NCBI GenBank assembly: GCA_026706845.1 | Contig: JAPOXY010000036.1 | Span: 1-60,132 of the forward strand | Source of the DNA: Gemmatimonadota bacterium | GTDB taxonomy: Bacteria > Latescibacterota > UBA2968 | Direction of reading: 5' to 3' | Length of the DNA stretch: 60,132 nt | Shown: in pieces, positions 45,362-50,547 of the stretch | Numbering within the stretch: position 1 is the first letter of the stretch | Layout: each line of letters starts with the position of its first letter | Translations under genes and position numbers: made by a program | The notes under the pieces: generated by a model | Databases searched by the model: none | What the model saw: the letters and a program-made list of their open reading frames with translations, nothing else | Told to the model about the DNA's origin: nothing

Positions 45362-48300
45362 TCAAAACGACATACCGAGGCGGACGTAGTAGCCGATGCC
45401 CTCTGGATCGGTGAATCGGTATGCCACGCCGAGGCGGTAGCGGATTGCCGAATAGAGGACGTAATAGTTGATGATAATCTCGGTGCCAGCCGAGAGGAGT
45501 GGGCGAGATTGCGATGTATCGGGTCCCCAGGTGTTGGCGGCGTCGGTGAAGAATGTCCAGAAGATGCGGTTGTAGTGTATCGGCCACGCCCGCAGGCCGC
45601 GGTTCTCCAATGCGAGGGGGGCGCGGTATTCCAGGGATGCAGACCAGGCGTGCCGTCCCGACCGTGTAGATGTATCGTATCCACGTGTCGGGAAAGTGAT
45701 CGACTCAGTGCCTCCGATGTCGAAGTAGCTGTTGTCGCTGCCCGGTCCCCGAGATGCACCAGCACTCGCGCGAAGTGCCAGGACGGGTGCTGCAAATTGG
45801 CGTCCTGGAAGCCAGAGAGGCAGTCGCGCATAGGTTTTGACAGTGCCTCTAATGTCATCTGCCGAGCGGTCGTTTGAGGAGCGAGAGAGGTCGTGGCGTC
45901 GCCTGAAGCGAGCGGAGAATGATGTGCCGGTCGCCTGTCCCATCTGAAAGGCGGATGAGCGCGCAGTGGTGGCGGAAAAACGCACCGATAGTTCGCCCAG
46001 GGTATTGCGCGGATCATCGAGTCGGAACCGATGGGTTTTTCGCAGCGCGGAGTCCAGTACTTCTCGATCCTCTCGCACGAGTCCGCCGGAGACTGTGAGT
46101 GAGACACTGCTTCGCGCCTTTGGCTTTACCAGGGTCATTGATAGGGAGGCACGGCGTTCCCGTTCGAGGATGAAGAAGGTTTCGGTTGGGGCATCGGTAC
46201 TCTCCTGATATAATCTGGCGCCGTCTTCGTCCCAGTCCTGCGATAGCGATAACCCGAGCGAGGGGTTCCCCAGTCCGTAGTAGCGGTAGGACAAATCGCC
46301 TGCAGCTCTTTCGTCAGAATATGATCTAACTGGCAGGAAGATGTGGGCACCGATTTCGTATTCGTGCCGGCGCACGAGGTCGATCCCTGAGGTGCGAGCG
46401 CCGATGGATGTGCCGAGTATTTTGGTGCGGCGTATCACCGTTTCTCCCTTGCGATGAGCGGGTACTGAGATGGGGTGATTCCATATGGGTTCCCAGTAGT
46501 AGGGACGCAGGGTCGCAAGCGGCGAGTAGGCGCGTACCCGTCCTTCTGCGCGTCCGCGTGATCTGTTGGCGACCTCGGCGGTGGTGTGTGTCGAGTCCGC
46601 GCGAGGCGCGGGTGGTGCAGCAGTGGGATTGAATGGAATCCGTTCTATCTCCCAGCCATCGGCGTGGTAAGCCGAGAAGTAGAGCCAGCGGCCCGACGGA
46701 TCGACGCTGGGATACGCCGCCCCTGTGCGGAGATTGGTTAGCATGACGGGGGGCGAGACTTGCCCGTTATCGACTTTTGCCGCGAGTATGTTCGGGATGC
46801 CGCTGCGGTCAGATGCCCAGACCAGCCACTGCCCATTAGCATTCCATGATGGGGCGAAGTCGAGGGCACGGTCGCGGGTCACTTCACAGATGAGGTTGCC
46901 GTGTGTATCGAGGAGGACGATATCGTGGTACCCTTGAGTCCAGCGGGTCGCCGCAATCCAGCGGCCATCGGGTGAGATTGCCGGGTACGCCCAGTGGACG
47001 TCTGGATCGGGAGGGACCAGCGTCTCAATGGCACCGTTGCTGAGATTGACCCGCGCCAGTCCGCTGGTTCCCCCACCTTCGGCGACTGCGACTGCCCAGC
47101 CTGCGGGACTGACCGATGGGGCGATTAAGCGGGCGCGAGTTGTTATGCGTCGTACATCACTGCTCGGCGTTACGCGGTAGAGATCTCTAAACCTGCGATA
47201 GCGACCAGCAAATTCATATTGCGCGAAGACGATGTCTCCATTGGGGATGAAGGCAAATGTGGTGCTGCCATTGGTCAGGGTTACGGTCGATTCACCACTG
47301 CCATCTAATCTGGTTGATACCAGTTTGGCATCTGAACGTCCATCTGATCGGATGTAGTACAGTGTTTTGCCGTCGGGCGATACTTTTGGGTGGTACGCAT
47401 AGCGGGCACCGCGGGTTATCGCCTGTGGTTCGGTGATTGTACCGAATTTGGCGAGGCGGGTGTCCAGTTCCGCCGCCGCTGTCCGCTGTGTATCTGCCCA
47501 CGCTTTCCACTCATTCGTCAAGGTGGTGCCAAAGGCGCTGCGTCCGGCGGCATCGAGGCGGTAGGGTATCCACTGTTTTTCCACTGCTTCGACGAAGGCT
47601 ATCATGCGGTCGCGTCCGTATTTTTGTATCAGGTGTTCGAAGAAGAGCGATCCGTAAGCATAAGCACGGGTGCCACCCGGCCACTGGGGCGAGTTGCCAC
47701 CTGTCTGGTCGATGGACTCGAACCGCCCTTCAAGAGCCGCTGTTCGCAGGACCATTTTGTGGAATGTCCCATGAACGCGCCCGGTGCCAGTCAGTGCAGA
47801 TTCGTACCAGACGGCAATGCCTTCGCGCACCCATCGCGGGGTGGCGCGTGCGGGGATTGTGAAAGCTGGGACTGGCAGGCGTCCGTCTGGGGGAAACAAG
47901 ATGTATGGGGATGGTACGCGTCCAAATGGCTTGTACAACAAGCTATAACGGCCCGGGCGGTCAACGTGGAAGATGTGCGTGAGTTCGTGTACGATGATGT
48001 TTTCCAGCCGATCATTGTAAAAAGCACGTCCGAAGGAGTCGATAGGTGGGCGGGCGTAGATGGTGATTCGGTTTGAGGGACGCACACTCGCGTAGCCATT
48101 CGAGACGTCGATGTGATCGGTCAGTACAAGGTCGATTATTCCGCGTGGCGCGTCAATGAATTGTTCGGATAGCCGGGCGTGCGCCCATTCTGCGCGCTCC
48201 GCTGCCCTGCGTCCCAGGTCTTCGAGATGTGCGGGAAAAGTGACGCGGAAGTGTTCTGTATCGAGTGTGCGCCACGATTCGTCCGGCGCAATGCGTTGCG

Positions 48301-48370
48301 CCGATGCCGATGCCGTGCATAAGGCGATGACGAGTAATACTTTTATCCCTATATCTATTCTTGATCTCAT
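45362..48370 (-). CDS. Protease-like/beta-propeller/outer-membrane barrel fusion protein
   Basis: A 1002-residue exported protein. After a signal peptide (ends ASASAQ) comes a gluzincin-like domain with HELTH at residues 128-132, then a TolB/WD40-like propeller (about 270-590; repeated SPDGKTLYYI, SPDGRWIAATRW, DPSGRWLYFSA), and a C-terminal part of about 350 residues made of amphipathic strands ending in SF with LEYRAPLAL and FTDAANTW, like BamA/Omp85-type barrels. It probably sits in the outer membrane with the other domains on one side. The frame upstream of ATG 48370 continues but is overlap with the next gene. Ribosome site weak. Confidence 0.78.
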   Translation of the reverse strand: MRSRIDIGIKVLLVIALCTASASAQRIAPDESWRTLDTEHFRVTFPAHLEDLGRRAAERAEWAHARLSEQFIDAPRGIIDLVLTDHIDVSNGYASVRPSNRITIYARPPIDSFGRAFYNDRLENIIVHELTHIFHVDRPGRYSLLYKPFGRVPSPYILFPPDGRLPVPAFTIPARATPRWVREGIAVWYESALTGTGRVHGTFHKMVLRTAALEGRFESIDQTGGNSPQWPGGTRAYAYGSLFFEHLIQKYGRDRMIAFVEAVEKQWIPYRLDAAGRSAFGTTLTNEWKAWADTQRTAAAELDTRLAKFGTITEPQAITRGARYAYHPKVSPDGKTLYYIRSDGRSDAKLVSTRLDGSGESTVTLTNGSTTFAFIPNGDIVFAQYEFAGRYRRFRDLYRVTPSSDVRRITTRARLIAPSVSPAGWAVAVAEGGGTSGLARVNLSNGAIETLVPPDPDVHWAYPAISPDGRWIAATRWTQGYHDIVLLDTHGNLICEVTRDRALDFAPSWNANGQWLVWASDRSGIPNILAAKVDNGQVSPPVMLTNLRTGAAYPSVDPSGRWLYFSAYHADGWEIERIPFNPTAAPPAPRADSTHTTAEVANRSRGRAEGRVRAYSPLATLRPYYWEPIWNHPISVPAHRKGETVIRRTKILGTSIGARTSGIDLVRRHEYEIGAHIFLPVRSYSDERAAGDLSYRYYGLGNPSLGLSLSQDWDEDGARLYQESTDAPTETFFILERERRASLSMTLVKPKARSSVSLTVSGGLVREDREVLDSALRKTHRFRLDDPRNTLGELSVRFSATTARSSAFQMGQATGTSFSARFRRRHDLSRSSNDRSADDIRGTVKTYARLPLWLPGRQFAAPVLALRASAGASRGPGSDNSYFDIGGTESITFPTRGYDTSTRSGRHAWSASLEYRAPLALENRGLRAWPIHYNRIFWTFFTDAANTWGPDTSQSRPLLSAGTEIIINYYVLYSAIRYRLGVAYRFTDPEGIGYYVRLGMSF

Positions 48371-48378
48371 CGTTAGAA

Positions 48379-50367
48379 TTAAAAATTGTGGAAGCCGTGT
48401 CCCGAGCCGGGGAACCAGATGAGGTCTATGACCATGCCGACGCCAATGCCGGTGCAATAGCCAATTACTGTGCCGTAGAAGAAGGGTTTTGCGCGTTCGT
48501 AGAGGCGTGGACCGCCAAAATGGACGATGAGGAGTTTGGCTGCCCAGACCATGAGTATGCTCAGGGCGTAATAGCGCGGTCCCGTTGTGTATTGAAATGC
48601 GAGGCCGAGGGGATGCAGCGGCCAGCGGGGGAACCATGTGCGCAGGCCCGCCAATAATGCGGCTATTCCCGCTCCGAGGAGCCAGATGCCGAGTTTTTGG
48701 GGGTCGAAAGATGTTTTTTCGGTTTCGCCCAATGCGCGTCCAATTCCACCAAAAATACCCAGGGGTCCTTCCCAGAGGGTCCAGGAACGCAGGAAGAGCG
48801 CGGAGTCGCGATAACAATAGTAGATGATGGTGGCGGCACAGACAAAGAAGCCCATGGTGAATGCGAGAAAGACGACGCCATTCGTCCAGTGTTTGCCGCG
48901 TTCTGCGGGCACGTCATCCATGGCTTTGAAGTGGTGGGGCAATACCTGCATGGTTTGTATGCGTCCGCCGCCGTAGAATACGCCGCTGTTGACCAGGTGC
49001 ATTGCGGTCATTTCGCGGGTCGATAGGGTGGCTGTGCCGAGAATTGTGTTGACAAAGCCCGATCCTTTGATCCACACGGGGAAGAGATATCCAAATCCGC
49101 TGGCTGCAATGAATTTGGAGGTCGCAAAATATGCGATGAACATCATTAGCAGATGGACAATTGCGAGAGATAGCGACATGCCCAGGGACATGAAAAAGCT
49201 ACAGAGGTACAATACGGAAATGAACAGGCCGATAACGGCGAAGCGATAGGAGATGGGTCCATCGCCGCGGTTGCCTTTTAAGGCGGTTTTTGCGACATGT
49301 ATCAGATGTCGTCGCGCGATCCATACAGACCAGACGACGAGTACTGTCATTGCGCCGTGGCTTTCGAGGTTGACGATTTCTCCGCCTTTGGCAACTTGTC
49401 CTTCTAACCCGACTGTGAAACCGGTGCGGTTGATGATGCCCATTTTGACCACGGCGAAGAGGCCAAAGAACCAGAAGCTGAACAAAAGATCCAGGCTGCA
49501 CAAATATCCGAGGCCAATGACCAAGGGCAAGACGCGCAAATAGACGGGGGGGAAGCTCTGTGCTACAGTCATGGATTTGGTGTTGATGCTGTCAAAGAGC
49601 GTGATGCGGGGTACGTTGGGAAACCAGAAGTTGATGATGTTCCAACCAATGATGCCCGCAGTCCAGGCAAAGCCAGCCCAGAAGACGGGGTCGCGGAAAA
49701 TTTTGGGCAATGCACGGCCTTCGCCAAAGCCTTCCATGAGGTCCATGGGGAAGTTGACGAGTGGATAGGTCAAGCGCTCGGCATCGGCCCATTGGCGGTG
49801 AAAAATGGCGATGACAAAAAATCCGGCGGACATGAAGGCCAATACGCCAGAGAACCACCATAAGACGGATGGTATCCAGCCTGTCCAGGGGACAAATTCG
49901 CCCGTGTGCAGGCCAAAGTAGAAGCGGTCCATGATCCAGGGGGTGGGTTCGGGAAATGCCCAGTGAGGCAGTTCGTCTAAGAACAATTCTGCCCAGCGAT
50001 TTTCCGGCGATGCAAAAAAATAAGGTGCGGGCAATGCGCCGATAAAGTACCCCATCCAGCCGACGCCGGGCATCATGCCCACAATCCACATGGTGGCAAA
50101 GATGACCATCATTTCGTGACGCGAGAGCACAGATTGAGGCGCTATCCGGGCGATGATCATGTTGATCACGACCCAGAGGAGGAATCCCAGGATGAGGGCG
50201 ACGGGAAAACTGGATTTGACCATCGATCCCGCGTGGAGTACGATTTCGAGGACATTTTGAGAATAGGCCATAAGGCCGGCGGTGAGCAGGCCAAGGAGGA
50301 TGGATCGTCCGGTGATGCGCGGCGATTCGGTTGGTTGAATTTGGGGGTCGGGTTGCGAAATAGCCAT
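48379..50367 (-). CDS. DUF6785-family polytopic membrane protein
   Basis: A 662-residue protein with at least a dozen hydrophobic segments (SILLGLLTAGLMAYSQNVLEI, VALILGFLLWVVINMIIARI, IFATMWIVGMMPGVGWMGYFIGALP and others). It matches the DUF6785/DUF6784 proteins abundant in Latescibacterota, Poribacteria and planctomycetes, possibly related to oligopeptide-type transporters; substrate unknown. ATG 50367 has GGAG 7 bases upstream. It ends 8 bases before the fusion-protein gene start, so these two form an operon. Confidence 0.8.
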   Translation of the reverse strand: MAISQPDPQIQPTESPRITGRSILLGLLTAGLMAYSQNVLEIVLHAGSMVKSSFPVALILGFLLWVVINMIIARIAPQSVLSRHEMMVIFATMWIVGMMPGVGWMGYFIGALPAPYFFASPENRWAELFLDELPHWAFPEPTPWIMDRFYFGLHTGEFVPWTGWIPSVLWWFSGVLAFMSAGFFVIAIFHRQWADAERLTYPLVNFPMDLMEGFGEGRALPKIFRDPVFWAGFAWTAGIIGWNIINFWFPNVPRITLFDSINTKSMTVAQSFPPVYLRVLPLVIGLGYLCSLDLLFSFWFFGLFAVVKMGIINRTGFTVGLEGQVAKGGEIVNLESHGAMTVLVVWSVWIARRHLIHVAKTALKGNRGDGPISYRFAVIGLFISVLYLCSFFMSLGMSLSLAIVHLLMMFIAYFATSKFIAASGFGYLFPVWIKGSGFVNTILGTATLSTREMTAMHLVNSGVFYGGGRIQTMQVLPHHFKAMDDVPAERGKHWTNGVVFLAFTMGFFVCAATIIYYCYRDSALFLRSWTLWEGPLGIFGGIGRALGETEKTSFDPQKLGIWLLGAGIAALLAGLRTWFPRWPLHPLGLAFQYTTGPRYYALSILMVWAAKLLIVHFGGPRLYERAKPFFYGTVIGYCTGIGVGMVIDLIWFPGSGHGFHNF

Positions 50368-50547
50368 TTTGTGCTCCGTATTTAGAATGCGCGTTAATAT
50401 ACGATGCCCAAATAGCAGTGTCAAACGCCTGGGGTAGTATTTGTCAATTTGTGATATTGGGGTTATTATGAGGGGGCTGGTGAGTTGGGTTGTTGGGCGG
50501 GCTGGGTGCTGACCGCTGACTGCTTGGGGGCTGGTTGGGTGGTCGTC

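Follow-up and report, generated by a model that had tools for sequence, protein, structure and literature searches.

Does the single open reading frame at positions 45,362 to 48,370 of the window (the whole 60,132-nucleotide stretch of DNA analysed) join a peptidase, a β-propeller and an outer-membrane barrel, and what might such a protein do? An earlier note had proposed that a HELTH motif, TolB-like blades and a BamA-like barrel lie in one chain, and that the C-terminal part would anchor the rest in the outer membrane. The open reading frame, motifs, profile matches and predicted folds agree on the single chain, and the prediction of an Omp85 barrel supports the proposed mode of anchoring; the three-domain anatomy and the anchoring idea are together well supported. 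The borders of the gene (ATG at 48370, stop ending at 45362) were confirmed and a model of the full chain has a pLDDT of 78.7 and a pTM of 0.82.

45362..48370, minus strand: whole gene, peptidase, propeller and Omp85 barrel (1002 aa plus stop; conserved over its full length in relatives)
48299..48370, minus strand: putative N-terminal signal peptide, residues 1-24 (by eye, a hydrophobic stretch and a cleavage-like site between ASA and Q)

In the predicted structure a helix is present at residues 2-17, within the putative signal peptide. A longer version of the protein, starting at an upstream in-frame TTG (1151 aa), was rejected, since the proteins of relatives start close to the ATG at 48370 and its extra upstream part overlaps the DUF6785 gene. 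Assignment as a lipoprotein was likewise rejected, a lipobox being absent by eye.

Conservation was assessed in an alignment, A1, of the window protein with 47 relatives (identities 18-92%), the ORFs for which were chosen by phmmer E ≤ 1e-8 and a minimum length of 450 aa, without regard to motifs. An earlier HExxH count of 39/39 was circular, as the ORFs had been pre-selected for HExxH, and the count of 48/48 is used instead. A1 omits two contig-cut ORFs (L040 and L041, both with HExxH) and duplicates of a gene listed under more than one locus id; L049 was kept, although it is cut at 685 aa and is without a barrel.

47435..48295, minus strand: predicted gluzincin-type metallopeptidase domain, residues 26-312 (predicted fold, M1/M30 matches, Peptidase_MA_2 in relatives)
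47975..47989, minus strand: HELTH zinc-binding motif, residues 128-132 (H128, E129 and H132 invariant, 48/48)
47822..47824, minus strand: E183, predicted third zinc ligand, in WVREG (invariant, 48/48)
47660..47662, minus strand: Y237, probable transition-state tyrosine, in YxxG (Y237 and G240 invariant, 48/48)

The overall conservation of the predicted active site is complete in A1, H128, E129, H132, E183, G184, Y237 and G240 all being invariant. The third zinc ligand, which the earlier note had suggested should lie 20-60 residues beyond HELTH, was found as E183, 51 residues after the second His. The H128 to E183 spacing is 55 residues in the window protein and 32-61 across the family, and that from E183 to Y237 is 54 and 41-54 residues, respectively. 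The YxxG sequence around Y237 resembles the VYEKG of M1 peptidases, the tyrosine of which stabilises the transition state. A chance HExxH is ruled out by the invariance of both HExxH and E183 (48/48). The same invariance bears on whether the domain might be dead or structural, with the protein serving only for binding, as a receptor or scaffold; loss of at least some of the metal ligands, the general base or the tyrosine would be expected in a dead domain, and we regard such a role as highly improbable.

Refolded alone using AF2 (residues 26-313), the peptidase domain gave a model with pLDDT 81.8 and pTM 0.83, for which Foldseek returned 37 PDB matches at E ≤ 0.001, i.e. M1 aminopeptidases, LTA4H and clostridial collagenase peptidase domains, plus a single TFIID-complex chain that is not a peptidase. 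The M1/M30 fold matches span ~205-240 residues, e.g. by VIA-align with IRAP (Z 16.8, rmsd 3.7, 237 aligned) and with the M30 peptidase lugdulysin (Z 16.6, rmsd 4.9, 235 aligned). Sequence-profile comparison with the PDB gave weak matches (E 0.011 for the best), and it is the invariant motifs together with the predicted fold that carry the gluzincin assignment. Peptidase_MA_2 (PF13485) scores 16.9 bits on the window protein (E 0.0056) versus a Pfam cut-off of 32.4, and is matched in 36/48 A1 members at E ≤ 0.1. An HExxH motif, a downstream Glu in the position of a ligand and a thermolysin-like fold, the features that characterise gluzincins, are all present or predicted. The M1 and M30 gluzincins (IRAP, ERAP, PepN, lugdulysin) have the same fold and share HExxH...E and the conserved downstream tyrosine; by contrast the window family has no GxMEN, the M1 aminopeptidase/exopeptidase motif (0/48 in A1), and identities are 9-16% in the VIA-align rows listed. 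Endopeptidase rather than aminopeptidase action would be expected given the absence of GxMEN, the one motif on which this proposal rests. Elsewhere in the same genome a TPR protein (L111:563-3100) has an internal Peptidase_MA_2 domain with the sequence HEFVH.

46616..47434, minus strand: TolB-like β-propeller, residues 313-585 (PD40, TIGR02800, VIA-align)

The TolB-like blades proposed for the middle of the chain are confirmed by PD40 repeats (Pfam E 1.2e-14) and by a fold match of the modelled propeller to TolB (VIA-align Z 25.5, rmsd 2.3, 238 residues), with the VIA-align rows for the full model spanning 310-584 only, such that their silence on the other domains is uninformative. TolB, a soluble Tol-Pal system protein found in the periplasm, is the nearest propeller relative both by sequence and by fold, and provides the top PDB matches to the family profile in this region (E 9e-35). 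The similarity is that of a common propeller, but the window protein is not itself assigned as a TolB; TIGR02800 matches it with E 4.7e-24 at 85.1 bits, below the NCBIfam cut-off of 343.15.

45365..46495, minus strand: predicted Omp85-type outer-membrane β-barrel, residues 626-1002 (predicted strands, Foldseek, hhalign)
45677..45685, minus strand: RGY motif, Omp85 L6-like loop, residues 896-898 ([RK]GY in 45/48)
45527..45550, minus strand: FTDAANTW, Omp85 motif near the C terminus, residues 941-948 (aligns with FADAGNAW of the BamA of the same genome)

The earlier proposal would have failed had the C-terminal part not folded as a barrel; the model predicts an Omp85 barrel, with 15 long strands past residue 650 and one 6-residue strand at 626-631, albeit with lower confidence than for the propeller (pLDDT ~42-91 by ten-residue block). 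Foldseek matches this part to Deinococcus radiodurans BamA (8xnb_A, E 1.6e-9, TMt 0.63) and further to Toc75, FhaC, Bacteroides thetaiotaomicron BamA, CdiB and SAM, and the family profile matches PDB 9ccg_A at the barrel (E 1e-7). Alignment by hhalign of the family with the BamA-like protein of the same genome (probability 96, E 1.5e-9) brings together RGY and FxDxxxxW; it also sets the propeller against the N-terminal region of the BamA-like protein, a pairing that we take to be meaningless. The RGF/RGY loop motif is a mark of the Omp85 superfamily. In the window family [RK]GY was tallied by eye in the aligned segment of A1, the exceptions being L049 (truncated), L066 (SGY) and L079 (unaligned there), and the window protein ends in an aromatic C terminus, GMSF. 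PF01103 (Omp85) was found in 15/48 A1 members at E ≤ 0.1 and not on the window protein itself at Pfam E ≤ 1, which has a weak NCBIfam match to Deinococcus BamA at residues 857-952 (E 3.3e-4). As the Pfam cut-offs are unreached, the Peptidase_MA_2 and Omp85 calls for the window protein are based instead on its relatives, on motifs and on the predicted structure.

The architecture is real and well conserved. Relatives were detected in 63/64 genomes searched of the phylum, itself little studied, including that of the window, at E ≤ 0.001 (with at most 12 candidates scored per genome), and a search for the same domain order found that it recurs throughout. Among the matches listed, close counterparts sharing 53-92% identity with the window gene, of which two are partial, occur in 11/11 genomes of its genus and in 4/4 genomes of g7, a genus of another family of the order, with none in the other 49 genomes of the phylum. 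A FastTree tree of A1, read by its topology, places the window clade on its own branch. The named close relatives comprise five Latescibacterota/Latescibacteria records and one labelled Gemmatimonadota, the latter (L009, JAPPIE010000144.1) having a 91% match to the window gene and the same gene order; its label is probably wrong, because the identical match coordinates recur as G036, which is placed in the genus of the window.

Outside the phylum, plasmid records were searched. A tblastn search with query P0001 gave no match; two paralog queries gave one protease-propeller, encoded on Salinibacter ruber pSR116 (L105:2890-4791), whereas in the other records listed (20 out of 45 for one query and 12 out of 64 for the other) the matches were confined to the propeller stretch or its surroundings. 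The Salinibacter protein, annotated as a 'basic secretory protein-like protein' (WP_118831798.1), resembles the window protein in that a PD40 propeller comes after an HExxH peptidase, but at 633 aa it stops before any barrel. A soluble peptidase-propeller pair thus exists without the barrel anchor.

The suggestion in the earlier note that the three parts are normally separate proteins does not hold as a claim of rarity, both because the domain order recurs across the phylum and because, in the available text of a 2014 study, a class combining propeller and Omp85 barrel was already recognised (PMC4104836). In that text, Heinz & Lithgow define ten Omp85 subfamilies, including WD40-Omp85, which has a propeller most like TolB ahead of an Omp85 barrel and is without POTRA; a POTRA domain is not required for Omp85 membership in their scheme (PMC4104836). 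The window protein likewise is predicted to have a WD40-like propeller preceding its Omp85 barrel. By contrast, an N-terminal peptidase is not described for WD40-Omp85 in the main text, in which 'peptidase' has 0 word-start occurrences (PMC4104836). So far as the accessible text goes, therefore, the propeller-barrel class is already known and what is added here is the N-terminal peptidase domain; within a limited set of open-access literature, a description of the three-domain chain was not found. The 2014 'metalloprotease' Omp85 class is assigned in the same text to PF00149 (PMC4104836), which is Metallophos in Pfam, and the window family would set a genuine metalloprotease-Omp85 apart from it. 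The available part of a 2024 paper calls both the WD40-like and metalloprotease classes not well characterised (PMC11116518); the invariant predicted metallopeptidase site would provide the first concrete biochemical hypothesis for an architecture of the WD40-Omp85 type.

By analogy with characterised systems, the protein is probably an outer-membrane-anchored periplasmic endopeptidase, with a propeller that would handle or gate substrate and a barrel serving chiefly as an anchor. It would be exported by Sec, then inserted in a BAM-dependent manner, giving a barrel of the 16-strand Omp85 type in the outer membrane with the gluzincin and propeller hanging on the periplasmic face. As with other members of the Omp85 superfamily, both ends of the barrel would point into the periplasm, so that the enzyme would remain there. 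Zn-dependent hydrolysis would be carried out by HELTH/E183, likely as an endopeptidase, with Y237 stabilising the transition state; the propeller may dock or gate unfolded or peptide substrates, and the barrel may in addition be a substrate-sensing platform. For the protein as a whole, local proteolysis at the outer membrane, in quality control or peptide processing, would be the most likely function.

To our knowledge, PlpD is the one studied precedent for an enzyme fused to a barrel of this type, and it is for PlpD that surface export via such a barrel (type Vd) was reportedly first proposed. If the barrel of the window protein similarly exported its own protease-propeller, the product would be an extracellular, nutrient-degrading enzyme on the cell surface. 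Protein translocation by FhaC and other Omp85 relatives, described in the available text of PMC4104836, is consistent with this proposal, as is the Salinibacter protein, which, having no barrel, would work as a secreted enzyme in soluble form; however, the large protease-propeller would need to cross the barrel, and the lipase domain of PlpD was found to be located in the periplasm, as stated in the available part of PMC11116518. PlpD (a patatin-Omp85) resembles the window protein in the placing of a hydrolytic enzyme before the Omp85 barrel, differing in that it has a patatin lipase and one POTRA domain in place of gluzincin and propeller (PMC11116518, same part). The analogy with PlpD makes a periplasmic location most likely for the peptidase and propeller, and surface display is considered unlikely.

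Canonical Omp85 members carry at least one POTRA domain, and none was detected in the window protein at Pfam E ≤ 1. This observation is relevant to the possibility that the protein is an assembly factor with proofreading, the barrel inserting or holding clients like BamA, the propeller taking the role of BamB, and the peptidase removing stalled clients like BepA. The 2014 authors, in the accessible text, themselves liken WD40-Omp85 to a BamA-BamB fusion (PMC4104836), and BepA is described in the available part of PMC8423444 as promoting or degrading LptD at BAM. BepA, an Escherichia coli M48 enzyme, is, on the same partial source, comparable by functional analogy only, as a periplasmic Zn-peptidase at the outer membrane; it is separate, soluble and of another peptidase family. 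Besides the absence of POTRA, two observations argue against an assembly role, i.e. that the genome has separate BamA-like Omp85 proteins and that it has four genes of this kind (on contigs C36, with the window gene, C189, C171 and C63), which points to several substrates more than to a single core role. Such a function is accordingly rather doubtful, and a periplasmic endopeptidase remains the preferred assignment. A broader and similarly doubtful speculation is that the WD40-Omp85 class, in whole or large part, is really one of peptidase-propeller-Omp85 proteins, i.e. a one-chain outer-membrane quality control system, with several paralogs per Latescibacterota genome, in which a gluzincin edits propeller-presented clients at an Omp85 barrel, so combining the roles of BepA, BamB and BamA.

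48379..50424, minus strand: DUF6785/DUF6784 membrane protein, possible operon partner (8-bp gap upstream of the window gene)

The genomic neighbourhood is conserved among the closest relatives, with the order DUF6785, window gene, Fe-ADH, LarA-like, pyrC, carA present in 7/7 close-relative loci examined (L009-L014 and L085; L012 and L085 show equal figures and are probably one, leaving 6 independent). The order is lost at L081, a 66%-identical copy, and at three g7 loci (L082-L084), and in L013 the gap to the DUF6785 gene is ~770 bp. Among the loci examined, no neighbours pointing to a pathway were found beyond the closest relatives, and no solved structure matching the DUF6785 protein by sequence was found. 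The DUF6785 and window genes may be co-transcribed, the pair being flanked by a promoter-like site (50424-50396, ahead of the DUF6785 gene) and a terminator-like one (45353-45337, behind the window gene), both of types also expected by chance; conservation does not support a shared function.

Other Omp85 genes of the genome include a cluster of three (L106:386-8570, i.e. G000:C164:386-8570), encoding a PlpD-like patatin-Omp85 (773 aa), a 905-aa Omp85 with a long N-terminal part without a Pfam match and a 480-aa Omp85. At a further locus (L108:2549-4225) a DUF4252 domain is fused to an Omp85 barrel.
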